From the NCBI RefSeq assembly GCF_028705895.1, contig NZ_JAQWCQ010000005.1:1-64000 (forward strand): a stretch of 64,000 bases of DNA, read 5' to 3'. Below are positions 13,044 to 28,812 of this stretch, in pieces (position 1 is the stretch's first letter; every line of letters starts with the position of its first letter). Both the position numbers and the translations under genes were made by a program. The notes under the pieces are model-generated. The model did no database searches. It saw only the letters and a program-made list of their open reading frames with translations, and was not told the origin of the DNA. This stretch comes from Massilibacteroides sp. Lineage in GTDB: Bacteria; Bacteroidota; Bacteroidia; Bacteroidales; Tannerellaceae.

Positions 13044-14663
13044 TTATTTAGCCCAGAATAATTTAATATAGTAACTATCATCTCCACCCATGCTTTGTAC
13101 TTGAGTTTCCCAGTTACTTGTATTATTACTACGTTCTGAAGCAGGATATTTTACTCGATAAGGTGCTTTCTTTAACAGTTGAGCTCCTCCATCTTCAGGA
13201 AAATAAATGTCAGGGAATCCTGTGCGACGAATTTCATTCCATGCTTGTGATGATTGAATAAATCCGAAATTCAGCCATTTTTGAGTAATAATAGCTTCTT
13301 CTTTATTGGATGCAACGTCCCATGCCTTGTTCGCATATGCCTCAACTACGGCATCCCCAGGATATGTTAGTTTTGTTCCTTCAGAACTCGGACTTATTTC
13401 ATTCTCATTGAAATAGAATTGAGAAGAGAACAAGACACCGTCAACATACGCTTGTTTTGCATCTCCGTTTGCCCATCCTTTCTGATAGGCTTCGGCTTTC
13501 AAGAAAGCTACTTCTGAAGCTGTAATAATCGGACTAATAAATTCAGTATTGTAGCTTACTGTTGTCGAGTCAATCCGTGAATACGCACGTTCTGCAGATG
13601 GTTTGTCAACATTTATCTTTTGCTCGGCATAGGTTTCGTTTTCTGGATCTAATCCCTTATATTCGCCAGCCGCATTCTTTGAATACAAGATTGGAAGACG
13701 AGGGTCATTTTCACCAGCAACAGTTTTTGTTAATGCATTAAGCATCGCACTGGAAGCATTTACATAATTACCATCAGCATATCCGGTTCTTAAGTCATCC
13801 GGATTAAAGAAATTAGCAGTATCTTCATTATTAGAATCTAATTGAATTCCTCCACTATTGCTATCAACTAATGGGAGATTTCCATTCAGAATTTCTGCAA
13901 CCACTTGTTTCCCTTTCTCTGCTAATGTACCTTGCGACGCTACACGAATAGCAAGACGTAAACGTAATGAGTTACAGTAAGCTTCCCACTTGTTCAGATC
14001 ACCTCCATTAATAAAGTCCTGATTAGGTAAATAAGCTGCAGCTTGTGCGCTTAAATTTCCGTTTAAGCTATGTATATTAGTATAAAGCTCTCCAAGACGA
14101 TCTAACATCATTGAATATAAATCTTCTGCTTTGTCATAAGAAGGAAAACTTCCCGCAACATCACCAGTAATGTAGAGATACCCTGCTTTTTCAAAAGGAC
14201 AGTCTCCAAAAATATCTACGATTTGTGACAGATGATCATAAACAAAGACTTCTGCAAGATCTTTAAAGATGGAGTAAGTAATTTTTTCTTCATCGCTCAA
14301 TTTACTATACACATCTTCTAAAACGCGAAACTGCGTTAGGGTGTTGTAAAAGTTTACCCAGCGATCATTGGCATAACCATCACTTACCGCGTAAATATTT
14401 CCTTCATCATTCATAAAGCCTACGGTTTGGGCATAAACTCCGAGTGAGTAGTTGTCCCAAGTCCAGGCACGCCAATAAGAATTGAATGTATATGTACGAC
14501 CAGTATAAAATACACCTGTCATCAGTTTATCACATGAAGCTTTTGATGTTTCTGATGGATTATCGTACTTGTCCGTATATTCACTGTCTGCACAAGAACC
14601 CAAAGAGAACGTAGCTGCTAATATGATGAGGTATGAATATATTTTTTTCATTTTATTTTTCAT
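13044..14663 (-). CDS. SusD/RagB-like outer-membrane lipoprotein
   Basis: This is a surface lipoprotein that captures substrate and caps the SusC channel. From the chosen start it has 539 aa, a short Lys-rich N terminus, and a lipobox ending in Cys24 (FSLGSCADSEY). The body is helix-rich with TPR-like segments and a C-terminal WNEIRRTGFPDIYFP motif near residue 490, which favours the SusD-like_2 type. The frame opens 14 codons further upstream, inside the end of susC, but the two ATGs at 14663 and 14651 both give a proper lipoprotein signal. I chose 14663; 14651 is equally possible. It lies 16 nt after susC. Substrate unknown, since no degradative enzyme is adjacent. Confidence 0.88.
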   Translation of the reverse strand: MKNKMKKIYSYLIILAATFSLGSCADSEYTDKYDNPSETSKASCDKLMTGVFYTGRTYTFNSYWRAWTWDNYSLGVYAQTVGFMNDEGNIYAVSDGYANDRWVNFYNTLTQFRVLEDVYSKLSDEEKITYSIFKDLAEVFVYDHLSQIVDIFGDCPFEKAGYLYITGDVAGSFPSYDKAEDLYSMMLDRLGELYTNIHSLNGNLSAQAAAYLPNQDFINGGDLNKWEAYCNSLRLRLAIRVASQGTLAEKGKQVVAEILNGNLPLVDSNSGGIQLDSNNEDTANFFNPDDLRTGYADGNYVNASSAMLNALTKTVAGENDPRLPILYSKNAAGEYKGLDPENETYAEQKINVDKPSAERAYSRIDSTTVSYNTEFISPIITASEVAFLKAEAYQKGWANGDAKQAYVDGVLFSSQFYFNENEISPSSEGTKLTYPGDAVVEAYANKAWDVASNKEEAIITQKWLNFGFIQSSQAWNEIRRTGFPDIYFPEDGGAQLLKKAPYRVKYPASERSNNTSNWETQVQSMGGDDSYYIKLFWAK

Positions 14664-14679
14664 TTTATTTGATAAATAT

Positions 14680-17600
14680 TTAGAACGTTGCACGAAGTGA
14701 TACACCTAATGAACGAGCTGTTGCAGTAGAACCACCCATTTTTGCTTGCGTAATCCAAGTGGTACCATCAGTTGCTTCTGCATCAAATCCAGGTAAATTT
14801 TTGTAGATATAGAACAAGTTACGACCATAGGCAGATACCTGAATGCTTTTACAGAAAAATTTGGATAAAAGAGGTTTCGGCAGACTGTAACTAAACGAAA
14901 GCTCACGACATTTCAAATAAGAATTATCAAATACACCAAGATCATAATGGGTGATTGCGTCATTTGGACCACTTCCCCAGTTGTAGTTCCAGTTAGCCCA
15001 TTGGTCTGCAGCGATCATTTGGGTGTTGGCTTCTCCTGTTTTTACGTTTACCCCCGGAAGGATAATACCATTGTCATAAATTCTTTCACCATTAGGACCT
15101 GTTGTTCCATTGTAAGGAACTAATGTACTACCATTCATGTAAAATGTAGAGCCATAGCCTTCACCATCATGATATTTCAACGTTTCTTCTAATGCACCCT
15201 GACCCATCATATACATCCAGCCGGTGTTCAGTACAGCTCCACCTATACGGTAGTCAAATGACATGTCGATTGAGAAATCCTTCCATGTTAATGATGTTGC
15301 GAAACCTCCTACTAACTTAGGCATAGCATTTCCAACCTTAACTGGTTCGTCAGTCAATTTGTAGAACCCATTATCTAAAACAAGATATTCACCATTTTCA
15401 TTTTTATCAGGTACATATGTATATATATCACCCATGGGTTCTCCTACTTTTGAATAAAGATAAGCTGCACCTCCGTCCCAGTTAGCATGTTCTAATTGAT
15501 CTACACCGTCCATTAATTTACTTACCATATTTTTGTTCCATGCAAGATTTCCACGCAGAGTCCATGTCCAGTCACGTGTGGAAATTGGCGTTCCGTAAAG
15601 AGAGAGTTCGAAACCTTTGTTTTTAAGTTCACCTACGTTCAACCAAATACTTGTTCCACCGGCAGAAGCAGGCATTGTTGTTTGTAGTATTTGATCTTTT
15701 ACTGTATTTGTATAGTATGATAGTTCAAAGCCAAGACGATTATTGAAGAATTTACTTTCTAAACCTAATTCCCACTCATATTTCTTTTCGGGACGAAGGT
15801 TTTCATTACCAACGGCACTGTTTACGCTGTTGTATATCCATTGTCCTCCTGTTGTTTTCTGTATAAAAGCTTTTGATCCTTTATATATCGCCGGTGCATT
15901 ACCTACTATACCATACGAAAGACGTACTTTCCCATAATTGTACCATTCGGGAAGCTTTTCTCTCAAGAGTGAAGTGTAGATTAAGCTTCCATTTACTGAT
16001 GGGTAGAAGAACGAATTGTTACCAGGAGCCAAAGTTGATATTTTTTCTTGACGACCTGTTCCTTCTAAATAAGCCCAATCGCTGTAAGAAAGACTTAACA
16101 TTCCGAATGCTGCCGTTTTTAAGAACTCTAATGTGTTCATTCCGGAACTTGCAGTCTTGTTACTTGCATTTAAATGAAACCAGTTTTCTACAGATAGTCC
16201 GCCATTAGTCCCTACAGATACGTTTGTTTGCTTTTCTTGACGTCCTTGCCAGCCAATAGTTGCATCAAATCCCAATTTATCAGTAAGTTGAGTATTGTAA
16301 TTTAGCATTGCATCACCGTAGAAAATATCGTAACGGTTGTTTTGTAAACCATAATATCCGTAATTTCCATTATTGAACACAATAGATTGTTCTACAGATT
16401 CCTTATTTTCTATCTTATATATTGAAACGTCAGTTGCGATACGTCCTTTTAATGTCAATCCTTTGATAATTTCCCAAGTCGGAGTAATATTAGCCATTAA
16501 ACGGTTGTTGTTTTCTAACTGTTCTTTTCCTAAAATATTCCAATAATATTCATCAACTAATGCACCTGCTGGAATACTGTATTCAAAACCTTCGTCAGGT
16601 GTTAACTGAGTATCGTTATTATACTTTTGATTACGGTATCCGAGGCTGGTTAAAGTATGATTACGTAAATAATTAATATCATCGAACGGTCCAAAGAATC
16701 CACTGAAGTTATCTGTTAAACGACTGATACGATATGGACGATTCTTGATATCCTGAATAATATAGGTAATTCCATAACCGAGTTTAATTTTATCAGTTAT
16801 ACTTTGACTACCAGTTAAATTGAAATTATTCTTTTTAAACGTAGAGTTGTATTGTGTAGGCAAATTATCTACGTAGGTATAAGAAAAACGCACATTGCTG
16901 TTTTCGCCGCCTTTAGTAATTGCTACATTATACTGTTGGTTGAAACCTGTACGGAATACATCACTCCAAGGGTCATCTGTAATGGGTTCATACTTGCGTA
17001 CAGTACCATCATAGAAAAGGACATCACGGCCATCATATCTTGGCCCCCAATAACTATAAGTTTCTTTGAGTCCTGTATATTCTTTTCCGTCTCTACCTGT
17101 CACCTTGCGGAATCCGTCCGCATCTGTTCCTCCCGAAATACGTGATCCAACTCTTTGACCTGGACCATATTTTGTTTGATACTCTGGCATGTAGGCAACA
17201 ATATCTGCAGACAAACTGGCGTTGAATTCAACTCCATAACCTGTACCTCCTTTTCCAGACTTTGTGGTAATCATTACGACACCATTTGCTGCTTCAGATC
17301 CATAAAGAGCCGATGCCGATGCTCCCTTTAATATAGACAAGCTTTCAATGTCTTCGGGATTAATATCTGCTAATCCGTTTTGTTGAATACGTTGGTTTCC
17401 CCAGTATCCATCTGTGTTGGTGTCGCCGTTGTGGATTGGAACACCATCTACAACAACTAATGGCTGGTTTGTCCCAGTTATGGAACTTAAACCACGAACG
17501 TTAATTGAGATTGATCCCATAGCTCCACCCGGAGCAGTCTGAATACGTACTCCAGGAGCTTTTCCGTAAAGTGCAGAACCTAAGTTGGGTGCTGAAGCTT

Positions 17601-18045
17601 TGGTTAAATCACTTGCCGTAACGGTACTTACGGCATATCCTAATTTTTTAGCTTCTTTTCTAATACCAAGCGCAGTTACTACTACTTCATCTAATTTCTG
17701 CGTATCTTCCTCTAATGTTATAGAAAGATTACTTTGTCCGGTGTACTTAATTTCTTGAGTGAAATATCCTATAAAAGATATCTGGATCGTTGCTCCATCA
17801 GGGATATTATCCAGGGTGAAGTTTCCATCAAAGTCACTGATGGTGCCGTTTGTTGTTCCCTTTACTACGACAGAAGCGCCAGCAACAGAGCCCATATTAT
17901 CTACTATTGAACCAGTGATTTTCCCTTTTTGCTGAACGACTTGCGTCCCTGGTCTTTCGGGAACAAGGTCTGCTTGTACACTTCCTGAGAAAATCAAAGC
18001 ACCAGTAAGCAATAAGAGGCTAACAGGTTTGTACGATTTGAACAT
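14680..18045 (-). CDS. SusC/RagA-family TonB-dependent receptor
   Basis: This 1121-aa outer-membrane barrel imports the ligand captured by the neighbouring SusD using TonB energy. A signal peptide (1-25) is followed by a carboxypeptidase-regulatory-like domain (about 40-125, KITGSIVDNMGSVAGASVVV), a TonB-box-like segment (LDEVVVTALG, about 118-127), a plug domain (about 135-260) and a 22-strand barrel to the C-terminal Phe. It has no STN domain, so it should not signal to an anti-sigma factor. This fits control by the divergent hybrid two-component gene. Its promoter lies about 120 nt upstream. Confidence 0.93.
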   Translation of the reverse strand: MFKSYKPVSLLLLTGALIFSGSVQADLVPERPGTQVVQQKGKITGSIVDNMGSVAGASVVVKGTTNGTISDFDGNFTLDNIPDGATIQISFIGYFTQEIKYTGQSNLSITLEEDTQKLDEVVVTALGIRKEAKKLGYAVSTVTASDLTKASAPNLGSALYGKAPGVRIQTAPGGAMGSISINVRGLSSITGTNQPLVVVDGVPIHNGDTNTDGYWGNQRIQQNGLADINPEDIESLSILKGASASALYGSEAANGVVMITTKSGKGGTGYGVEFNASLSADIVAYMPEYQTKYGPGQRVGSRISGGTDADGFRKVTGRDGKEYTGLKETYSYWGPRYDGRDVLFYDGTVRKYEPITDDPWSDVFRTGFNQQYNVAITKGGENSNVRFSYTYVDNLPTQYNSTFKKNNFNLTGSQSITDKIKLGYGITYIIQDIKNRPYRISRLTDNFSGFFGPFDDINYLRNHTLTSLGYRNQKYNNDTQLTPDEGFEYSIPAGALVDEYYWNILGKEQLENNNRLMANITPTWEIIKGLTLKGRIATDVSIYKIENKESVEQSIVFNNGNYGYYGLQNNRYDIFYGDAMLNYNTQLTDKLGFDATIGWQGRQEKQTNVSVGTNGGLSVENWFHLNASNKTASSGMNTLEFLKTAAFGMLSLSYSDWAYLEGTGRQEKISTLAPGNNSFFYPSVNGSLIYTSLLREKLPEWYNYGKVRLSYGIVGNAPAIYKGSKAFIQKTTGGQWIYNSVNSAVGNENLRPEKKYEWELGLESKFFNNRLGFELSYYTNTVKDQILQTTMPASAGGTSIWLNVGELKNKGFELSLYGTPISTRDWTWTLRGNLAWNKNMVSKLMDGVDQLEHANWDGGAAYLYSKVGEPMGDIYTYVPDKNENGEYLVLDNGFYKLTDEPVKVGNAMPKLVGGFATSLTWKDFSIDMSFDYRIGGAVLNTGWMYMMGQGALEETLKYHDGEGYGSTFYMNGSTLVPYNGTTGPNGERIYDNGIILPGVNVKTGEANTQMIAADQWANWNYNWGSGPNDAITHYDLGVFDNSYLKCRELSFSYSLPKPLLSKFFCKSIQVSAYGRNLFYIYKNLPGFDAEATDGTTWITQAKMGGSTATARSLGVSLRATF

Positions 18046-18163: not shown

Positions 18164-18171
18164 CAAATCTA
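18164..18171 (-). promoter_or_regulatory. Promoter -7 element of susC-susD
   Basis: The minus strand reads TAGATTTG, a TAnnTTTG match. Transcription would start near 18158, giving a leader of about 110 nt. Upstream, near the -33 position, only a weak TTGACA-like sequence is seen, which suggests dependence on an activator. Confidence 0.5.
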
Positions 18172-18229: not shown

Positions 18230-18258
18230 TGAACGATTTTGTATCTATAATGAACGAT
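18230..18258. promoter_or_regulatory. Candidate operator: TGAACGAT direct repeats
   Basis: TGAACGAT occurs at 18230-18237 and again at 18251-18258, exactly 21 bp apart, so both copies face the same side of the helix. Direct repeats with this spacing suit a dimeric AraC-type HTH such as that of the adjacent hybrid regulator. The site lies 60-90 bp upstream of the susC start and also covers the -33 position of the regulator's own promoter. Confidence 0.5.
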
Positions 18259-18275
18259 ATTATCTTCTCTTTGAT

Positions 18276-18315: not shown

Positions 18316-21300
18316 ATGCAAAAATGTAAATGGCTTCATTTAACACTTATTTTCTGTTTCTTTTGTTTACCAATTAGTGGGGAGCGCTTTCATTTTAGAA
18401 CTGTTGGAATTCTGCAAGGTCTTTCTCAAGCTTCGGCAATATCTATCTGGCAGGATAATATTGGTAGAATGTGGTTTGGTAATGATGCTCTTAATTGCTA
18501 TAATGGAGAAACAACTCAGGTATATCGCGTGTCCGAATATTTCCCGGAGATTGAAGATTCCAATATTCATGGAATTTGTGGTGGCGATTCTGTGCTATAT
18601 TTATTGGCAGAGGAATATATTGTGGGCCTTGATCTGATAACTAATCAATTGTTTTTCCCGAATATTCGAGCTACTCATATTGAAGTTGTCAATAATATCT
18701 TGTATTATTCTTCTTTAGAAGGTGATTTATTTAGATATGACAAAAAAACTAACGAAGCAAACTGCGTTTTTGATTTAAAAGAAAAGAATATACAGATTTA
18801 TAGCTTTTTGTCTGAAAAAGAGGACGTGTTTTGGTTAGGAACGTCTTCCGGATTATATAAAGTTGACATTAAAACAGGACAGATTCTTTCCGGATACTTC
18901 GAGAATGATGTTGTTGGCAGTTTGTTTAAAGATTCAAATGAGAATATGTGGGTTTCCTGCCGCTCGAAGAATATTCGTATCATTAATTCTAATGGAAATA
19001 TCTCTACATTAGTCTATAAGAAAGACTTGCAAACTCAGTTTGAGAAAGATGCATATTGTTTCACTGAAGATTCTAAAGGAAATATCTGGCTTGGAACATT
19101 GAATGGCATTTATCAGGTTGTTCCTCCTCTTCATGGAGCACCGGCTCAAGTCCTGAATGATGTTTTTTTACCTGAATTTTCTATTTATGCATTATATACT
19201 GACAAACAGGGAACTATATGGATAGGTCCGTATTATGGAGAAGTTAGATGTTTTAATCCGGAGACAGATAACTATACCCTTTACTCCAGTAAAGAAAATG
19301 AACCCTCTTATCTACATGGAGTAGTACTTGGAGATATTGTGGAAGATAATGACGGTTACCTGTATGTAGCATCGGAGGGAAGCGGAATAAATGTTATATC
19401 GCCGGATAGGGTGACTATCAAACACATAACTGTGGCTTCTCATAACCTTCCGCACGATAAGGTGAGATCCTTATTCTACGACTCTCAGTATGACCGTTTG
19501 TATATCGGAACTTATATGGAAGGGTTGGTTTATTATGACAGGAAGACAGATAAAGTGTATCGGGTAAATTCAAAAACTCTTACTACCCGATATCAAAATA
19601 TTATTGAAGAAATCATTTCGTATCGTGATTATCTTATCTTCTTGACTCAGGATGGTTTGTTTAAAATGGATAGGAAAACGATGATTATTTCTCCTCTTTT
19701 TAAAGAGAAGGATTTAGCCGAGCTATCATCAGGCATCTCTCGTACAATTTATTTAGACGACAGGGATGTTTTATGGATTTCTTCATTAAATAGCGGACTC
19801 TTTACTGTTGATATGAAGACTTTGAAAGTCTTGTCGTTTTACGGAGATGGATTAAAGAAAGAGAGTATTATTCCCAGTGCCGTAATCAGTATTTGCGGTA
19901 ATTCGAGAGAAGGTCTGTATTTTGCAACATTAAAATCTGGGGTATTGAGTTATGATGTTGAAAAGGACGCGTTTACGAATTATAGGGAGGAAGAAGGCTT
20001 TTTGTTGAGTGATATCTGTTATAATGTTGCACTTTCAATGTATGGCAATTTGATTGTAACCTCCAACAAAGGAGTCTCTATTCTTAATATATCAGGTCGC
20101 CGGACAATAGATTCATCAAGTCATATTCGTTTAGATGGAACTTCTCCAATAATGTCATTAAGTCCCGATTGCGGACTTTATATTTCTCCTCGCAACAGAG
20201 ATATCTATATTGGCGGTTTGCAAAAATTAATCGCGTTTGATGAAAAAGATATAAGTACAGTTAAGAGCAATTATACATTATATATTAGTTCTATTCAGAT
20301 AAACAACACTGCATTCAGTGATTTTTCTCCTTATTCTATTGATGATTCTTCAAAAGAAAATCTTGTCTTACCTTTCGATAAGAATACTGTGAATATAAGT
20401 TTTGCTTCGTCAAATTATCTGGGTTCCTATTATACGGGTTATGAATATAAAATGGATGGCCTTTTTGGTCTTGAAGATTGGATGCAAACAGATAATAAGG
20501 CTATCTCGTTTACTTCTTTACCTGCTGGAGAATACACGTTTACAGTTCGTGAGACGACAAATCCCGAAAAGCATGTAAGCCTTTCAATTCTTGTCAAACC
20601 TCCTTTTTGGAAATCTTATCCGGCATATTGCTTGTATGTTATACTAATAGGAGGTTTGTTATGGATATTTATCCGTTCAAGCAAGGCCAAGGCAGTACTT
20701 CATGCGTCACTTGATTTTGAAAAAAGAGAAGCAAAACGGGTCTTAGAAGAGAACAGGAACAGATTAGATTTTTTTGCAGGTATATCAAATGAATTCAGAA
20801 CGCCTCTTACTTTAATAATTACAGCACTCGATGGTGCGTTGAATAATATCGACTCTCTGTCTAAATCTAAATTGGAGAAAATAAAGAAGCAAGCTCTACG
20901 TATGCAAAGTCTTTTTGTTGAATTGCAAGAATTCAGAGAAGCTGAGAATGGTATGTTAAGTTTGAAAGTAGGTTATCATAGTCTGACTCAACTTTTACAG
21001 GAAATTTTTGAAACTGTTTCTGATTATGAATCAACTCTCCAAATCACATTTCACTATTTCCATCCTGAAGAAGATGTAAAGGTCTGGTTTGACTGGGCGC
21101 AAATGCAAAAAGTAATTTACAATATCTTATTTGCCATATCGAAATTAGTGCATGTCAAAGGTCGCGTTGATATTTCCTTGCAACAAAAATCAGAATGGAT
21201 TGAAGTGATGGTCAGTTGTGTTGGTGATATCTATGACGAAGATATGTTAAAACAACTATTTGATATTTTTGAGAATTCAACGAATGCAGTAAACGAAACG

Positions 21301-22320
21301 GCTGAATTAAAATCATTGCCCAATAATACAATCGGACTGGCCTTTAGTCGTAAAATTGTATCAATGCATAAAGGAGAACTAATTGTCAGAACCGAGAAAG
21401 AAAGGACATCTTTTATTGTTCGCCTTCAGACAGGAGAAAACCATTTTACTACAAAGGAAAAGACAGCTTCAACAAAAATACCGCTTCGTCAGTTACCAAT
21501 GTATTTTGATCTACCTGAACAAACAACAGAATCTGTTTCAATAGAAAATATTGATTTAGGAGAAAAAAGATTCAAGATATTATTGGTCGATAGTAATGAT
21601 GAATTACGGTTCATGATGAATGAATCTTTTGCTTCTGTATATGAGGTTTTTGAAGCGACAAGAGCTGAGGAAGCTATAGCCATAGCAATACAAAAGCAAC
21701 CGGATATTATTATCAGTGAAGTTTCTTTAGTGGGAATCTCCGGTATGGAGTTGTGTAATAGCTTGAAAGCAAATGTTGTAACTCTCCATATCCCCGTTAT
21801 ACTTATTACGAATAATCCATCAGTAAAACAACAGAATGAAAGTGTCCGTTCCGGAGCTGATGAATATTTGGTTAAACCATTTAGTATGGAATATCTTTTT
21901 CTGCGTTGCAATAGCATTGTAAAGAACAGAGCTGGAATACTACAGAAATATACCGGTCATGTAGAGGAAGAGATACAGGGCTTAGCGACGAATCCCCATG
22001 ATCAACGTTTCCTGGATAAAGCAATTCTTGTTTTAGAAAAATATATAGAAGATGCCTCCTTTGATACGCATACATGGAGTAAGGAATTAGGTATCGGGCG
22101 CACCCGCTTATTCGATCGGATAAAACATATAACAGGAATGACGCCTAATGATTATCTTTTATATATAAAAATGAATAAGGCGATGACCTTTCTAAAAGAT
22201 TACGAAGAACTTACCATAGCGGAGATTGCTTACAAACTTGGTTTCTCGAATCCGGCATATTTTAGTAAATGCTTTAAAAAACAAGTAGGATTAACGCCAC
22301 AACAATATCGTAAAAAGTAA
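18316..22320 (+). CDS. Hybrid two-component regulator with degenerate phosphotransfer sites
   Basis: This is a one-protein sensor-regulator that should bind a breakdown product in the periplasm and activate the divergent susCD. Its order is: signal peptide (1-22), two-propeller sensor of Reg_prop repeats (to about 680), Y_Y_Y domain (681-760), one TM helix (about 769-788), HisKA (about 810-880), HATPase (915-1055), receiver (1087-1205) and AraC-type HTH (1235-1334). The length of 1334 aa is standard. Several catalytic residues are lost. The H-box reads SNEFRTPLTL, with Asn825 where the phospho-accepting His is expected. The N-box has Ala940 in place of the Mg-binding Asn (NILFA). The G1 box is degraded (CVGDIYDED). 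The receiver has Glu1135 in place of the phospho-accepting Asp (IISEVSL), though Asp1092, Thr1165 and Lys1187 remain. The HTH looks intact. I infer a phosphorylation-independent or constitutively active relay. Confidence 0.92.
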   Translation: MQKCKWLHLTLIFCFFCLPISGERFHFRTVGILQGLSQASAISIWQDNIGRMWFGNDALNCYNGETTQVYRVSEYFPEIEDSNIHGICGGDSVLYLLAEEYIVGLDLITNQLFFPNIRATHIEVVNNILYYSSLEGDLFRYDKKTNEANCVFDLKEKNIQIYSFLSEKEDVFWLGTSSGLYKVDIKTGQILSGYFENDVVGSLFKDSNENMWVSCRSKNIRIINSNGNISTLVYKKDLQTQFEKDAYCFTEDSKGNIWLGTLNGIYQVVPPLHGAPAQVLNDVFLPEFSIYALYTDKQGTIWIGPYYGEVRCFNPETDNYTLYSSKENEPSYLHGVVLGDIVEDNDGYLYVASEGSGINVISPDRVTIKHITVASHNLPHDKVRSLFYDSQYDRLYIGTYMEGLVYYDRKTDKVYRVNSKTLTTRYQNIIEEIISYRDYLIFLTQDGLFKMDRKTMIISPLFKEKDLAELSSGISRTIYLDDRDVLWISSLNSGLFTVDMKTLKVLSFYGDGLKKESIIPSAVISICGNSREGLYFATLKSGVLSYDVEKDAFTNYREEEGFLLSDICYNVALSMYGNLIVTSNKGVSILNISGRRTIDSSSHIRLDGTSPIMSLSPDCGLYISPRNRDIYIGGLQKLIAFDEKDISTVKSNYTLYISSIQINNTAFSDFSPYSIDDSSKENLVLPFDKNTVNISFASSNYLGSYYTGYEYKMDGLFGLEDWMQTDNKAISFTSLPAGEYTFTVRETTNPEKHVSLSILVKPPFWKSYPAYCLYVILIGGLLWIFIRSSKAKAVLHASLDFEKREAKRVLEENRNRLDFFAGISNEFRTPLTLIITALDGALNNIDSLSKSKLEKIKKQALRMQSLFVELQEFREAENGMLSLKVGYHSLTQLLQEIFETVSDYESTLQITFHYFHPEEDVKVWFDWAQMQKVIYNILFAISKLVHVKGRVDISLQQKSEWIEVMVSCVGDIYDEDMLKQLFDIFENSTNAVNETAELKSLPNNTIGLAFSRKIVSMHKGELIVRTEKERTSFIVRLQTGENHFTTKEKTASTKIPLRQLPMYFDLPEQTTESVSIENIDLGEKRFKILLVDSNDELRFMMNESFASVYEVFEATRAEEAIAIAIQKQPDIIISEVSLVGISGMELCNSLKANVVTLHIPVILITNNPSVKQQNESVRSGADEYLVKPFSMEYLFLRCNSIVKNRAGILQKYTGHVEEEIQGLATNPHDQRFLDKAILVLEKYIEDASFDTHTWSKELGIGRTRLFDRIKHITGMTPNDYLLYIKMNKAMTFLKDYEELTIAEIAYKLGFSNPAYFSKCFKKQVGLTPQQYRKK

Positions 22321-22550: not shown

Positions 22551-23405
22551 TTAGAATGTAGCCTTGATCATTACGGGATAGTGGTCCGAAGCAAAATGAC
22601 CATACTGATTATCTGTCAAAACACCATACTTGTTTACTGTAACGTTTTTTGAAACAAATATATAATCAATACGTTTTTTCATTGGAGCATCCCATTTATA
22701 ACTGGTAAATGTTCCGACAGGACCATAAGGCGGTTGTTTAGATACTTTGTACGAATCCATAAACATACCATCGTTATAGAGAATCTGTATCGGTTCATCT
22801 TCCGGAGCCGCATTAAAGTCTCCCGTACAGAAGAAAGTAGCTTTACCTACGATTTCTTTCATTTTCTTCAATAATAACTTGGAAGACTCACGGCGGGCAA
22901 CCTTTCCTTGATGATCGTAATGCGAATTAAAGAAGTAGAATACCTTACCGCTTACACTGTCTTTAAACTTAGCCCATGAACAAATACGATTACAACATTC
23001 AGCATCCCATCCCTTGCCCGGAACATCCGGTGTTTCAGAATACCAAAAGTCCCCATTCTCCAATACTTTAAAACGACTTTTATCGTAAAATATCGCCGAA
23101 TGCTCCCCGGCATCTTTCCCATCATCACGACCTCCGCCTACATAAGCATACTTACCAGTCTCTAAGATACCATCCAACTGATGTTTAAAACCTTCCTGCG
23201 TCCCGAATATATCAAATTCGTGAAATAACACTAAAGCCTTAACCATCTCCTTGCGATGCTCCCACGCGTTTTCGCCATCCTTTGGAGTGTCCATACGGAG
23301 GTTGAACGTTGCAACATTTATATTGCATTTATCCTTAGCGTTTGATGGAAGCAGTGCCCCCATCAAACAAAAAGCCAATAAAAATAATTTTGTTTTCATA
23401 TTCAT
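22551..23405 (-). CDS. Secreted endonuclease/exonuclease/phosphatase-fold hydrolase
   Basis: This is a metal-dependent phosphodiesterase or phosphatase of the EEP (DNase I-like) superfamily, exported by a signal peptide (1-23). Motifs in order are ATFNLRMD with the metal-binding Asn, GTQEG with the catalytic Glu, NSHYDHQG with the active-site His, TGDFNAAPED with Asp/Asn, and a C-terminal ASDHYPV with the Asp-His pair. All catalytic positions are present. Length (284 aa) is typical. It lies 8 nt after the SusD stop, so it belongs to the SusC-SusD operon. It may remove phosphate or cleave a phosphodiester in the imported ligand. The actual substrate (nucleic acid, phospholipid headgroup, phosphorylated glycan) cannot be told. 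Confidence 0.9.
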   Translation of the reverse strand: MNMKTKLFLLAFCLMGALLPSNAKDKCNINVATFNLRMDTPKDGENAWEHRKEMVKALVLFHEFDIFGTQEGFKHQLDGILETGKYAYVGGGRDDGKDAGEHSAIFYDKSRFKVLENGDFWYSETPDVPGKGWDAECCNRICSWAKFKDSVSGKVFYFFNSHYDHQGKVARRESSKLLLKKMKEIVGKATFFCTGDFNAAPEDEPIQILYNDGMFMDSYKVSKQPPYGPVGTFTSYKWDAPMKKRIDYIFVSKNVTVNKYGVLTDNQYGHFASDHYPVMIKATF

Positions 23406-23412
23406 AAACTAA

Positions 23413-25251
23413 TTAGTTACCATCATTAGAAGCTCCATTTTCCCAACCCTTATTTTGAGTGATATTCGGATTTTTAACCATCACCAATGAAGGGATTGGA
23501 TAAAGATATTGTTTTTCTCCGAATACTCGTTTATAGTCGTTTGGTGTATCCCAGGTAATGTAATATCCAGCAGCAGGATTACCCTTTTCTACCTCTTCAA
23601 CTCTTTGAAGAATGTTGTCTCCCTGTATTTGGATTGTTGCACAAGTCTTACCCACAACAGACCAGTCTAATTGCGCTTTTGCTGCTTCAAGGTTTGCATT
23701 AGTATCATAAAACAAAACATCGTAAGTACCATCCCTGTCTAAGTCAATAGCTTCGTTTAGTTTTTTGATATGCATACCATCCCAGCTCATGTTTAATAAA
23801 TAACCACATTTCCAACGACGGATATCATCAAAACGGAATCCTTCAAGGCATAGTTCGATTGCGCGCTCTCTTCTGATTTCAAGAAGAGTGGGGTCTGAAA
23901 TGGATGGAAAATAGGTTTGCTGGAAATAAGAATCTACGACTGTAGGTTTCGCGCTAATTCCACCAGTAATTCCTGCTCTTGAACGTAATGCTCCAATAGT
24001 TTTACTCCAATCTTCATCGGTTAATTTTCCTAATTCAGCTTTTGCTTCTGCATAGTTTAGCAGAACTTCTGCATAACGAAAAAGAGGTATCGCATTGGTA
24101 TTAAGAGATGCGTCATCATATTTCTTATCATCCAAACAGAGTTTGAGGGGTTGATATCCTGTTCTCGAATATCCCATAAAATCCGGAGCCGTAGCAGTAC
24201 CTTCACGAGTATAACCCGGAGTACGAATTGTTTGTGCAAGACGTGCATCACGATTCTGGCATTCTTCATAGAATAATTCCGTTTCCCAACCTGTACGTGA
24301 TGTGTATGGGGTTCCATCAGTTTGTAGATATGTATTGATGAATGTTCTTGTCATACTAAAACGATTACCATAGGTTGGAGAAGTCCATTTCCAGTTAGCA
24401 TGATGTAATACTCCCAGTTCAGAACTTGAACATACCGCAAGTAATACTTCTTCTGTAACAGGATCATCGCTTGTAAATAAAGCTCTGTACGATTTGTTTG
24501 TGCCGGCAGCTGTATATAGCTTTTTCCCGGAGTTTGTCATCACATATTCTGCTTTATCTGCAGCTCTTTGCAACCAAGTGTCTGCAGATGTCGATAAGCT
24601 CAAATTATGATATTTTCTGAATGTGCCTTCAAATAAAGCCACGCGAGAAGCAAAAGCATAAGCTACCCATTTTGTAACCATACTGCCTGATGCGTCTGAA
24701 AGCAAAGTGATGTTCTCACAGGCAAATTCCAAATCTTCATAAACTTTTTCCATCACTAACTCACGAGAGTCGCGAGGGGCGTAGAGTTCTTCGTCTTCAA
24801 CATCCAGAGTTTTGTCTATCCATGGAACATCTCCAAAACGTCTGACCATGTCATAATAGAAATAAGCTCTGAAAAAACGAGCAAGTCCGATATAGTGATT
24901 ACGGATTTTTTCATCTACAGTTTCGCTGGTACAATTTTCAATGAAGTAATTAATATTACGCAAATTACTCCAAGACCAACCACTTGAGTTTGTTTCACTG
25001 TATGCATTCTTTATCTGGAAGTCTGGGAGATTATTAATTGCTCCAAAATCAACCAGATTAATCTCGATTTGACTGGCATCACTACCTGACGGAAACTGTT
25101 TTTCATAAAATGAATATACATAGGTCTGTAGTCCAGCTTCTGAACTCATAATCGCATCTTTACTAACAGATGCTTTAGGTTCTTCATATAAATCACAAGA
25201 CGTGATATAAAGAGCTGAAAATAGAATAAACAAATAATGTATTTTTTTCAT
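23413..25251 (-). CDS. RagB/SusD-family outer-membrane lipoprotein
   Basis: This 612-aa surface lipoprotein has a lipobox ending in Cys19 (ALYITSCDLYEE). The N-terminal SusD-like helical repeat region (about 60-230) and the C-terminal RagB/SusD domain (about 300-610) are both recognisable, including the conserved RRERAIELCLEGFRFDDIRR-type segment near residue 460. It should bind the ligand and pass it to the SusC encoded 12 nt upstream. Its family branch differs from the SusD at 13044, so the two systems probably take different ligands. It is followed directly by the EEP hydrolase. Confidence 0.94.
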   Translation of the reverse strand: MKKIHYLFILFSALYITSCDLYEEPKASVSKDAIMSSEAGLQTYVYSFYEKQFPSGSDASQIEINLVDFGAINNLPDFQIKNAYSETNSSGWSWSNLRNINYFIENCTSETVDEKIRNHYIGLARFFRAYFYYDMVRRFGDVPWIDKTLDVEDEELYAPRDSRELVMEKVYEDLEFACENITLLSDASGSMVTKWVAYAFASRVALFEGTFRKYHNLSLSTSADTWLQRAADKAEYVMTNSGKKLYTAAGTNKSYRALFTSDDPVTEEVLLAVCSSSELGVLHHANWKWTSPTYGNRFSMTRTFINTYLQTDGTPYTSRTGWETELFYEECQNRDARLAQTIRTPGYTREGTATAPDFMGYSRTGYQPLKLCLDDKKYDDASLNTNAIPLFRYAEVLLNYAEAKAELGKLTDEDWSKTIGALRSRAGITGGISAKPTVVDSYFQQTYFPSISDPTLLEIRRERAIELCLEGFRFDDIRRWKCGYLLNMSWDGMHIKKLNEAIDLDRDGTYDVLFYDTNANLEAAKAQLDWSVVGKTCATIQIQGDNILQRVEEVEKGNPAAGYYITWDTPNDYKRVFGEKQYLYPIPSLVMVKNPNITQNKGWENGASNDGN

Positions 25252-25263
25252 TGCATCTCTGTT

Positions 25264-28200
25264 TTAAAATGTTACTGATAATCCAAATGTTATATTTTTC
25301 ATCAACGGATAGGTGTAGTTATCACCACTTGTTCCCGATGTCAAATCCGGATCAGATCCTGAAGAGGTGTTTGTTACATCATAATCTTTTGTCCGTTTAT
25401 ATAATGGTGACCAACTCCACAGGTTTTCACCACTTAAATAAACACGTACGTTTTGCATACCGGCTTTACTTGTTAAACTTTGCGGTAATGTATAACCCAC
25501 TTGTATATTTCTTAAACGGATGTAGGCGATGTTCTGAATATATCGATCAGTTATTGTTGTACGTAAAGATGGAGTATATCCTGCATAACGTGGAAGATAA
25601 GCATTGGGGTTATCTTCTGTCCAGTAATTTCCAAGGTGCCATGTCGGTAGTTGGTTATATGGACGGTTATATTGTCCCCAGAAGCCAGATTCGTTACTTG
25701 GATACCAATCTTGTTTGCCTACCCCTTGGAAGAATGCAGAGAAAAAGAAACTATTCCAATCTCCACTTAGCGTGAAGCTATAGATATAACGAGGCTCTTC
25801 GTTTCCAAGAATAACTTTATCACCCGGGTTATCTACAGTATTATCGCCATAGTCAATTTTTCCATTCTTATTTACATCAACAAACTTGATATCTCCGCGA
25901 TATGTTGTTCCATTTGAAGATGTCTTGATAATCGTATTTATATATCCATTGATCTCTTCTTCGGACTGGAATAAACCATCTGTACGATAGCCCCATATTT
26001 CTCCCACTCGTTGCCCTTCATAATAGTCGTCAAGACTTTTGGTGGAGTTGTTATATCGGTCTATAGTTGATTTATAATCGGCAATAGTTGCTTTGATTTC
26101 GTAATTGAACGGTTTGTCAACTAAAGTGAAACGGTCACGATAGTTAATTGATAACTCCCAACCTTTGGTTGTCATATCTGCATAGTTTCCTTTAGGGGAT
26201 GTTGCTCCGAATACATCAGGAAGAGTTACCCCTTTCGTGTACATATCAGTTGTCTTTCGGACATAATAATCTCCCGTCAATCTTAATTTTCCTCCGAGGA
26301 AACCTATGTCTGCACCCACATCCGTAGTTGTTGCTGTTTCCCAAGTAAGAGATCTTGGTATTACTGCCGGAGAATTTGTGTATTTGTTTTTAGCTCCATT
26401 TACAATATACCCTGCTGTACTGATTGAAAGTAACTCTAAAAAGCTATACGAATCTACATTCCCATTTCCTAATGATCCGTATGATCCACGAAGTTTAGCG
26501 TCTGAAATGAAATTTTCATTTACATTCCAGAAGCTTTCTTCTGAAATTCTCCAACCTAAAGAAACAGATGGGAAGAATGCCCATTGTTGGCTTTCAGGAA
26601 ATTTAGAAGAACCGTCATAACGGCCGTTTACTTCTAACAGATAACGATCTTTAAATCCATAATTCAAACGGAAAAAAGCTCCGGCAATCCGCCATTTTTC
26701 CCAACCTGCAGATGTCGTAATTGCATCTCCAAGAGCTAAATTTAAGCTTTCTGAATCTGATAATAACAGACCATTACGTTGTACATAAGTGCTTTCATAT
26801 TTAGATGTTTCGTAGTTATATCCGACCATACCTTTCAGATAGTGAGCATCGTTGAATGTGTCTTCATATTCAGCATATAGGTTAGTCGCAGTATATAATG
26901 TGTTACGTATACTTTTTTTGTAGTCATTGTACTTTTCACTTAGTTTAGTAATTACTCCTTCTTTTGTACTATACGGTACTGGAACACGACGTTGGATGTC
27001 GTTGTTATCGTAATTACGGAATGTAAAGTCGCCATTGATCCTTAATTTGTTATTTAAGAATTTAGCAGAAAACCCTGTTGTGTTTTTTAGAACTTTCTTA
27101 TGTGTATCTAATCCGTTCTTTCCATAAATAAAATCACCTACGGTATAGGCCGCAGACATTGTCAGTGATCCGTCAGGGTTGAATATCGGAGAGGTAGGGT
27201 GTCCTTCATCCGCAATGTTTCTCCAAATAGAACCTCCTTCACCCACATTTATCGGGTTATGGTATGTCATGTCCGAGAATTCCATATTGTTTGTCAGACG
27301 AAGCCAATCTGTCAACTGTAAAGAGCCTTTTGCACGAATATTCAACATGTCATAATTGTCCGTATTATACCGGAACAACCCATCATAACCATAATATCGT
27401 CCGGAAATATAAAAATCAGCTTTTTCAGTTCCTCCGGATACGGTCATATTATGATCCTGAGCGTAAGTCTGGTTTTTGTATAGCTCATCATAGTAATTAA
27501 CATTGCCATAATAAGTATATGTTCCGTCAGCACCAACCTCAACTTCATCTGTTATCCCTTGCGCACGGCGTTCTTTGAATTTCTCTAACCATGCGTCTGA
27601 ATACAATTGAGACTTGTTTATTTTACTTGGTAGTGATGAATAGTTATTCCATCCATAATAAGCTTCACGGAAATGTTCTGCATAAACTAAACCATCGGAG
27701 ACAATGTCTGGAACAGCTGTCGGCTTTTGCAAAGATACACTTCCTGAATAGTTGATCGTGACCTTTCCTTTCTCAGGATTTTTTGTCGTTATCAAAACAA
27801 CCCCGAATGACCCCCTGGCTCCATAAATAGCAGCAGAAGCAGCATCTTTCAATACAGATACGCTGGCGATGTCATTTGGATTTAATAAGGCAGGATCGCC
27901 CTCTACACCGTCAATAAGAACTAATGCGCTACCTCCCTGTCCGATTGATGTTGTACCGCGTACATTGTAATCCGCAGAGCGAGTCGGTTTTCCGTCAGCT
28001 AATGATATGTTTAAGTTCGGAATCGTACCTTGTAAAGCCTGAGAGACGTTAGAAACAGAACGGTTGTCAAAAACTTCACTTGTTACTTGGTCAACAGCTC
28101 CTGTCAGATTTACTTTCTTTTGTGTTCCATAACCAACTACCACGACTTCTTCTAATTTTTGTGTGTCTTCCTTTAGAATAATAGAGAGTTGATTTTTACC

Positions 28201-28812
28201 GGTTGTATTGATCTGTTGTTCTATATAACCAATGTAAGTGATGACTAAAACTGCATTTTCGGGAACATCCTGTAAACTGAAATTACCATCTACATCAGTA
28301 ATTGTTCCTTGAGTCATTCCCTTTACAACAACATTCGCTCCAATGACCGGTTCATTCGCCCCATCTACAATGGTACCTGTTATTGTCTTATTCTGTTGTT
28401 GTTGGAGCGTTCTTAAATCTGTTTTATCCAACATGTTTTTTTTTGCCAAGACAATGTTTTTGTCTAATACTTTATAGGCAATGTCGGTATTGTTGAATAT
28501 TTGATCAAGAATAACAAACACATCTTTTTCTGATGCACTTATTGACACTTCGCGTGATAAATTAATCTGCTTGTTATTATAAAAGAATTTGAAATCAGAG
28601 TTCTTCTCTATTTCTTGTAATACTTGTTGCATGGGTTTATTTTCAATATGCAACGAGACCAAAGCTGTTTGAGCATAAGCTGTTGTAGCACTACATATGC
28701 CTGTTGTCAATAGAAATATGACAGCAATAAACAGTCCTCTTATAGCGCTTATTTTTAGAAGATTAAGAAAAGTAATAATTCTTAATCTTTTGTTTGTATT
28801 TTTCTTTGTCAT
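25264..28812 (-). CDS. SusC-family TonB-dependent transducer with STN domain
   Basis: This 1182-aa outer-membrane receptor has an N-terminal extension. After a long signal/TM segment (about 24-48) comes a secretin/TonB N-terminal (STN) domain at about 50-110, then a carboxypeptidase-regulatory-like domain (about 140-220), a TonB-box-like region EEVVVVGYG, a plug and a barrel. STN domains of FecA-type transducers contact a FecR anti-sigma factor, and exactly such a gene lies 154 nt upstream, with an ECF sigma gene beyond it. Ligand binding should therefore release the sigma factor to raise transcription of this operon. The promoter before susC is not clear; a strong hairpin lies between fecR and susC. 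Confidence 0.94.
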   Translation of the reverse strand: MTKKNTNKRLRIITFLNLLKISAIRGLFIAVIFLLTTGICSATTAYAQTALVSLHIENKPMQQVLQEIEKNSDFKFFYNNKQINLSREVSISASEKDVFVILDQIFNNTDIAYKVLDKNIVLAKKNMLDKTDLRTLQQQQNKTITGTIVDGANEPVIGANVVVKGMTQGTITDVDGNFSLQDVPENAVLVITYIGYIEQQINTTGKNQLSIILKEDTQKLEEVVVVGYGTQKKVNLTGAVDQVTSEVFDNRSVSNVSQALQGTIPNLNISLADGKPTRSADYNVRGTTSIGQGGSALVLIDGVEGDPALLNPNDIASVSVLKDAASAAIYGARGSFGVVLITTKNPEKGKVTINYSGSVSLQKPTAVPDIVSDGLVYAEHFREAYYGWNNYSSLPSKINKSQLYSDAWLEKFKERRAQGITDEVEVGADGTYTYYGNVNYYDELYKNQTYAQDHNMTVSGGTEKADFYISGRYYGYDGLFRYNTDNYDMLNIRAKGSLQLTDWLRLTNNMEFSDMTYHNPINVGEGGSIWRNIADEGHPTSPIFNPDGSLTMSAAYTVGDFIYGKNGLDTHKKVLKNTTGFSAKFLNNKLRINGDFTFRNYDNNDIQRRVPVPYSTKEGVITKLSEKYNDYKKSIRNTLYTATNLYAEYEDTFNDAHYLKGMVGYNYETSKYESTYVQRNGLLLSDSESLNLALGDAITTSAGWEKWRIAGAFFRLNYGFKDRYLLEVNGRYDGSSKFPESQQWAFFPSVSLGWRISEESFWNVNENFISDAKLRGSYGSLGNGNVDSYSFLELLSISTAGYIVNGAKNKYTNSPAVIPRSLTWETATTTDVGADIGFLGGKLRLTGDYYVRKTTDMYTKGVTLPDVFGATSPKGNYADMTTKGWELSINYRDRFTLVDKPFNYEIKATIADYKSTIDRYNNSTKSLDDYYEGQRVGEIWGYRTDGLFQSEEEINGYINTIIKTSSNGTTYRGDIKFVDVNKNGKIDYGDNTVDNPGDKVILGNEEPRYIYSFTLSGDWNSFFFSAFFQGVGKQDWYPSNESGFWGQYNRPYNQLPTWHLGNYWTEDNPNAYLPRYAGYTPSLRTTITDRYIQNIAYIRLRNIQVGYTLPQSLTSKAGMQNVRVYLSGENLWSWSPLYKRTKDYDVTNTSSGSDPDLTSGTSGDNYTYPLMKNITFGLSVTF

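Follow-up and report, generated by a model that had tools for sequence, protein, structure and literature searches.

Organization of the regulator locus

The window analyzed here, a 64,000-nucleotide stretch (positions 1 to 64,000 of contig NZ_JAQWCQ010000005.1, assembly GCF_028705895.1), belongs to a genome that groups at genus level with Massilibacteroides (Tannerellaceae). It contains the gene for a hybrid two-component regulator (HTCS) of 1,334 residues that lacks both phospho-acceptors and lies next to divergent susC-like and susD-like genes (Table 1). The regulator is considered reasonably likely to be a phosphorylation-independent, ligand-gated transmembrane transcription activator of susCD that was derived from an HTCS.

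By descent and architecture, the protein belongs to the HTCSs, since Reg_prop/Y_Y_Y, a transmembrane segment, HisKA, HATPase_c, Response_reg and an AraC helix-turn-helix are present in a single chain. In Pfam scans, HisKA was recognized with 31.8 bits (cut-off 26.9), HATPase_c with 28.7, Response_reg with 60 and HTH_18 with 72.6 bits, and Reg_prop was also recognized. Y_Y_Y scored 25.5 bits, slightly below the cut-off of 26.6, in the window regulator and above the cut-off in the ortholog from locus L062. In AlphaFold2 models, the fold order was that of an intact paralog; with predicted template modeling scores (pTM) of 0.48 and 0.53, the models were informative for the folds and not for the geometry between the receiver and the DNA-binding domain.

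Table 1. Features of the regulator locus (window positions unless a locus is named) and the basis of each assignment.
Feature	Position	Strand	Basis
HTCS without phospho-acceptors, 1,334 aa	18316..22320	+	sequence, translation, Pfam
Periplasmic Reg_prop beta-propeller and Y_Y_Y sensor, aa ~23-765	18382..20610	+	Pfam; sequence match to solved HTCS sensor 4a2l
Transmembrane helix, aa ~767-787	20614..20676	+	hydrophobic stretch between sensor and DHp, read from translation
DHp (HisKA) domain, aa 791-885, cytoplasmic domain with the strongest constraint	20686..20970	+	Pfam, dN/dS, AlphaFold2
AAT, Asn825 at the phospho-His position	20788..20790	+	codon reading, alignment
Degenerate catalytic/ATP-binding domain, aa 886-1040	20971..21435	+	Pfam, alignment
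Ala940 codon at the second N-box Asn	21133..21135	+	alignment; Ala/Phe/Thr in clade
Destroyed G1 box, SCVGDIYDED vs DNGIGI	21214..21243	+	alignment
Pseudo-receiver, aa 1086-1205; Thr1165, Tyr1184 and Lys1187 kept, Ser1093 replaces an acidic residue	21571..21930	+	Pfam, alignment
GAA, Glu1135 at the phospho-Asp position	21718..21720	+	codon reading, alignment
LHIP, aa 1157-1160, altered S/CHIP half of the clamp	21784..21795	+	published motif, alignment
AraC-type DNA-binding domain, aa 1206-1334	21931..22317	+	Pfam
Arg1268 replacing the clamp Lys	22117..22119	+	alignment
Putative operator, 21-bp direct repeat GAACGATTTT-N11-GAACGATATT	18231..18261	+	only exact match in genome
Putative -7 element TAGATTTG of the susC promoter	18164..18171	-	distance from box in 9 loci
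Divergent susC-like TonB-dependent transporter, presumed target	14680..18045	-	domain scan, synteny
susD-like lipoprotein (SusD-like_2/SusD-like), presumed target	13044..14705	-	domain scan, synteny
Apparently ATP-dead HTCS with His and Asp, evolutionary intermediate	L036 1501-3126; L066 7959-9584		alignment, tree
Exchanged importer loci	window 14680-18045; L062 1931-5368; L070/L073; L071/L067		

Loss of the phosphotransfer residues

A sequence-only reading of the window had reported Asn825 (AAT) at the phospho-His position, Ala940 in the N-box, a degraded G1 box and Glu1135 (GAA) at the phospho-Asp position, in an open frame of 1,334 codons that retained the Lys and Thr of the receiver. All of these were found again in the sequence, the translation and the alignment, with the receiver residues at Thr1165 and Lys1187, and the frame was uninterrupted. 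The H-box of the regulator was GISNEFRTPLTLI, compared with the consensus SHEFRTPLTLI. The N-box, NILFAISK, retained Asn936 and had Ala940 where relatives carry a second Asn (NLLSNAFK), and the G2 box was NNTIGL versus GSGIGL. The receiver motif with Glu1135 was PDIIISEVSLVG (consensus, SDVMMP), and the second acidic residue of the receiver was also lost, with Asp1092-Ser1093 in place of the Glu-Asp of relatives.

Because there is no phospho-accepting His and the N-box, G1 and G2 motifs are lost, the protein does not qualify as a functional hybrid histidine kinase. Likewise, its receiver is not a canonical phospho-receiver, since both the phospho-Asp and a full pair of acidic Mg-binding residues are missing. 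The protein corresponds to a pseudo-histidine kinase, in which HisKA and HATPase_c are recognized, the catalytic residues are lost and the protein is preserved by selection, and to an aspartate-less pseudo-receiver, in which PF00072 is recognized (60 bits) and the Asp is absent. Judged by its sequence, the regulator has none of the residues on which phosphotransfer depends in its relatives, and signaling without phosphate, as the earlier reading had proposed, would be consistent with this state.

The published rates of loss are low (0.9% for the HisKA His and 2.0% for the receiver Asp; PMC12632262), and the Asn825/Glu1135 pattern is therefore not attributable to chance. Across 125 genomes from the family, position x of the context xEFRTPLTLI was His in 119 cases and Asn in 11, and never another residue. 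Among the HTCSs recovered from loci, which formed the own-genome comparison set, none except the window regulator lacked His or Asp, and the other recovered HTCSs of three Massilibacteroides genomes retained both.

Origin and probable order of the losses

Related proteins were collected by a family search, after which the genomes of 84,980 species were scanned. The resulting clade, referred to below as the dead clade, contained 16 distinct proteins: the window regulator, two same-genus orthologs and 13 further proteins, mostly from Tannerellaceae. The sources were Massilibacteroides, Parabacteroides sp., metagenome-assembled genomes (MAGs) of Tannerellaceae and Tannerella, and one MAG labelled Bacteroides sp.; Parabacteroides sp. 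PF5-6 and PH5-46 are cultured members. Both Massilibacteroides orthologs (71% and 68% identity) had the same Asn825, Ala940 and Glu1135 as well as a divergent susC, so that neither close ortholog had kept His and Asp. The agreement between genomes sequenced independently removes the doubts that resequencing would have addressed.

Alignment of the clade at the four positions revealed co-loss, with Asn at the His position in 16/16 proteins, the second N-box Asn in 0/16, an intact G1 box in 0/16 and Glu at the Asp position in 15/16. The clade was monophyletic (ultrafast bootstrap/SH-aLRT support 100/98) in a tree from which the trait columns had been excluded; by this phylogeny, the phosphotransfer residues were lost once. 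Over a total branch length of 7.4 substitutions per site, Asn825 was invariant, and free variation was seen at G1 and G2 and at the position of the second N-box Asn. A freely drifting position would be expected to have changed several times over this length. The remaining member, L065 (5604-9596), had Lys at the receiver Asp site and Gln at the site of the conserved Lys1187. This apparent paired charge change suggests that positions 1135 and 1187 interact and that Glu is dispensable.

The sister of the dead clade was formed by L036 and L066 (support 100/100). In these proteins, His and Asp are present, the second N-box Asn is replaced with Ser and G1 is lost, which argues for a stepwise loss starting at ATP binding. 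Thus, ATP binding probably failed before the phospho-acceptors were replaced, an order drawn from a single sister lineage.

A clade-wide phosphatase role of the retained E826/T829 motif was considered and rejected, since Glu was replaced with Ala in one member and Thr with Ile in three. Two dead-clade paralogs, L063 and L068, were found within one MAG.

Selection acting on the dead regulators

The ratio of nonsynonymous to synonymous substitution rates (dN/dS) was calculated by the Nei-Gojobori method. Pairs with usable dS were available from L063/L064/L038 and L068/L074/L072; in the Massilibacteroides pairs, dS was saturated and the low dN alone was informative. Overall dN/dS was 0.12-0.17 for the dead proteins and 0.03-0.15 for intact relatives. 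Within the dead proteins, the lowest values were found for DHp (0.03-0.07); the other values were 0.06-0.18 for the receiver, 0.07-0.16 for the DNA-binding domain, 0.10-0.19 for the sensor and 0.10-0.25 for the ATP-binding domain. The dead regulators are under strong purifying selection, which is strongest in DHp. Considering the low dN/dS of DHp together with the invariant Asn825, it could be concluded that this domain is maintained though unable to carry phosphate.

The degraded ATP-binding motifs would be expected if the gene had recently decayed or contained sequencing errors. However, the open frame, the replacement residues common to 16 proteins, the low dN/dS and the conserved operator described below all speak against this explanation, which is refuted by the orthologs and has a negligible probability. 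The preference of the earlier reading for selection over decay was thus borne out: the orthologs and the whole clade share the losses, and dN/dS is low in every domain. A disrupted relative, G007:C104:187410-188882, looks different; it has 10 in-frame stops and is either a truly decayed HTCS or the result of another coding problem.

Alteration of the receiver clamp

According to Gao, Wu and Stock (PMC11253607), the DNA-binding domain of HTCSs is clamped on the receiver via an S/CHIP motif in the receiver and D and K residues in the DNA-binding domain. The same study describes these residues as 84-98% conserved in 6,908 HTCSs and reports that DNA binding becomes phosphorylation-independent when the motif is substituted, as in Bacteroides thetaiotaomicron BT4124. 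The clamp D and K were assigned here by the published 39-residue distance between Asp and Lys. The clamp of the window regulator was LHIP-D-R, which places it outside the class regulated by the S/CHIP-DK clamp. Both positions were replaced in 16/16 members of the dead clade, the S/C position with L, D, H, M, Y or R and the K position with R, Q or L. The sister lineage had FHIP-D-K, and the intact relatives in the tree set had D-K in 24/24 and S or C in 23/24 cases.

Independent His losses elsewhere in the order were sought to test the coupling with the clamp. In 393 genomes, patterns covering Asn and all codons whose first base is not C, which leaves out Gln, matched only members of this family. 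Altered clamp Lys residues together with intact His and Asp were observed in L092, L106, L111, L112, L122, L128, L131, L138 and L140, which by sequence are candidates for other phosphorylation-independent regulation.

The altered clamp is also what would be expected of a constitutive regulator, the main rival explanation, in which Glu1135 is a permanent phosphomimic and the broken clamp frees the DNA-binding domain. In this case, susCD would be expressed regardless of ligand, and control would come from the protein level or from other regulators. The Glu that replaces Asp agrees with this explanation, as does the retention of Thr/Ser and Lys by most members; in receivers without Asp, Glu is the residue found most often at this site and is often partly activating (PMC12632262). 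However, the phosphomimic idea was disproved for some pseudo-receivers (PMC12632262), and L065, with Lys1135 and Gln at the Lys1187 site, still has the box and susCD. Strong purifying selection on the sensor and DHp, which a constitutive factor would not need, makes constitutive activity less likely. The earlier suggestion that Glu acts as a phosphomimic holds in part: Glu is kept in 15 of the 16 proteins, but L065 shows that the clade as a whole can do without a permanent phosphomimic. Constitutive activity is considered rather unlikely, and the ligand-gated, phosphorylation-independent activator is favored; neither a constitutive nor a decaying protein would need a constrained sensor and DHp.

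Putative operator, promoter and presumed susCD target

A box with the general form GWACGATTTT-N11-GWACGATWTT was predicted between the regulator and susC. The 21-bp period scored well above the neighboring spacings tried (17-26), and the box outscored shuffles in 12 of 13 susC-linked loci, with L069 as the exception. Genome-wide, the next best match to the window box had three mismatches. In nine loci, including the His/Asp-intact sister, the box started 59-61 bp from CAAANNTA. On the susC strand, this sequence is TAnnTTTG, which we take to be a -7 element of the Bacteroides type. A -33 TTG at the usual spacing was not found in nearly all loci examined.

Fifteen dead-clade loci had flanks, the window included; L038 had no usable flank. 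Besides the window, 11 of the 14 other loci and the sister locus L066 had a divergent susC adjoining the regulator, and susD was located behind susC wherever the contig extended that far (the L071 contig stops after susC). The dead-clade regulators L063, L064 and L072 had neither an adjacent susCD nor a box. Since the operator architecture is the same before and after the loss of the phospho-acceptors, the output appears to have been kept, and this is the strongest evidence for it.

The position of the box bears on whether the unphosphorylated protein might act as a repressor or brake of susCD that is bound to the box until ligand releases it, in line with a proposal for BT2391 among non-consensus HTCSs. 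PMC11253607 does link non-consensus clamp motifs with repression for BT2391. However, a box upstream of the promoter at a fixed distance from the -7 element, with no -33 TTG in nearly all loci, is an activator-type arrangement, and repression is considered very improbable.

The neighborhood is likewise informative about a partner-dependent subunit, that is, a dead protein that receives its signal from an intact HTCS or kinase, either as its heterodimer partner or under its control. DHp domains are generally known to dimerize, and an intact paralog (L004, 30-32% identity) is present in the same genome. However, no kinase or HTCS was recognized beside the regulator in the clade loci, where window proteins were the only reference for identifying flanking genes; moreover, the box is single and local, and the receiver has no Asp that a partner could phosphorylate. 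Dependence on a partner is therefore regarded as quite improbable.

A scan of ten window genes in the neighborhood of the regulator showed no carbohydrate-active enzyme. Beyond the regulator, on the side away from the divergent susC (window 22551-28812), a second susCD pair, whose SusC has an STN domain, and a gene of the endonuclease/exonuclease/phosphatase family were observed.

Exchange of importers under one regulator lineage

The SusC bodies at the dead-clade loci were of two types, with identities of 51-94% within and 26-30% between types. The first 128 residues of SusC (signal peptide, CarboxypepD_reg domain and EVVVTA) tracked the regulator tree, with N-terminal identities of 79% for window/L062, 75% for L070/L073 and 77% for L071/L067. 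The SusC body and SusD were exchanged at least three times, with a recurrent breakpoint directly after the SusC N-terminal domain. Sensor dN did not jump with importer type, and the scanned SusD partners of both types belonged to the SusD-like/SusD-like_2 families. Shuffling within a genome would be indicated by an additional copy of the SusC type of the other species, but none of the three Massilibacteroides genomes was found to carry one elsewhere.

Because the SusC barrel and SusD were exchanged repeatedly while the SusC N-terminal domain followed the regulator and sensor divergence was unaffected, it is conceivable, though unlikely, that the whole HTCS lineage passed from a phosphorelay to a mechanical one-component transmembrane switch whose input may be the state of the importer and not the imported nutrient.

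Proposed mechanism

For the favored ligand-gated activator, the following sequence of events is proposed. The periplasmic propeller/Y_Y_Y sensor would bind a ligand, and the conformational change would cross the membrane along the one helix and reach the DHp coiled coil, where the His-less DHp would persist as a dimeric mechanical conduit. Because the ATP-binding and phosphotransfer residues are lost, the relay to the pseudo-receiver and the AraC domain would proceed by contact, with the former S/CHIP-DK receiver clamp rebuilt; Glu1135 may stabilize the active receiver via Lys1187. The dimer would then occupy the 21-bp direct repeat that precedes susC and would activate the susCD importer. In this way, the sensor of a gut-type bacterium probably switches on a nutrient importer.

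The conserved sensor, the conserved dead DHp, the rebuilt contact between the receiver and the DNA-binding domain and the preserved operator together argue for conformational relay and not phosphotransfer. The loss of residues, its single origin and likely order, the purifying selection, the altered clamp, the conserved box, its spacing to the promoter and the synteny are read from sequence; dimerization, ligand gating, the direction of regulation and the mechanical relay are inferred.

Several points weigh against this interpretation. Glu in 15 of the 16 members fits a constitutive phosphomimic equally well; the protein may also be phosphorylated on a different residue, or a partner may activate it. 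Some HTCSs of the wider set with intact His and Asp also show altered clamp residues, and residue 1268 lies within the recognition helix, so that its change could concern DNA specificity. The interdomain confidence of the AlphaFold model is low (pTM 0.48), and the clamp geometry is beyond its reach. Finally, the losses had a single origin, and correlations within the clade are not independent.

Relation to known systems and significance

Bacteroides HTCSs such as BT4124 and BT1754 (sensor structures 4a2l/4a2m and 3v9f; structure of receiver and DNA-binding domain, 12aw) have the same domain order and divergent susCD as the window regulator. Unlike them, the window regulator lacks the phospho-His, the phospho-Asp, the second N-box Asn and G1, and its clamp is LHIP-DR instead of S/CHIP-DK. 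The HTCS BT4236 of B. thetaiotaomicron, with Gln848 in place of His and the clamp CSIP-EK, shares the absence of a phospho-His and a non-consensus clamp; in PMC11253607, a phosphorylation-independent mechanism is suggested for it in one sentence. This likeness, taken from the published description, concerns the His and the clamp only, with the receiver Asp and the ATP site outside it. BT4236 differs in having Gln rather than Asn and other clamp changes and in being a single protein rather than a clade.

Aspartate-less receivers (PMC12632262) resemble the window pseudo-receiver in the replacement of Asp with Glu, a weakened acidic pair and mostly kept Thr and Lys. In contrast to them, the window pseudo-receiver shares one polypeptide with a dead kinase and a membrane sensor, and its input therefore likely lies in the same chain. 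The pseudo-histidine kinase DivL of Caulobacter (compare PMC4211667) is likewise HisKA-like, without His and repurposed; it acts on other proteins, whereas the DNA-binding output of the window regulator lies within the same chain.

Membrane one-component activators such as ToxR and CadC are generally known to combine a periplasmic sensor, a single membrane helix and a cytoplasmic DNA-binding domain without phosphotransfer. Their domains are unrelated to those of the window regulator, which is not a member of that group, but by analogy it probably works like them. In literature searches for other phosphorylation-independent HTCSs, PMC11253607, with its sentence on BT4236, was the sole relevant match, and no report of an HTCS clade missing all phosphotransfer residues was found in a literature search that excludes most subscription papers.

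The switching of pseudo-receivers and pseudo-kinases is an open question, and that of pseudo-receivers has been called a mystery (PMC12632262). The window locus makes this question directly testable, as a dead kinase, a dead receiver, a sensor and a DNA-binding domain are present in one chain, a predicted operator and target lie at the same locus, and a half-degraded sister represents a natural intermediate. It may be asked here whether signals can travel through the ancestral fold when no phosphate is involved, and also which of the steps was the first to be lost. For the family, the finding is also a warning that annotation as an HTCS does not imply phosphotransfer.

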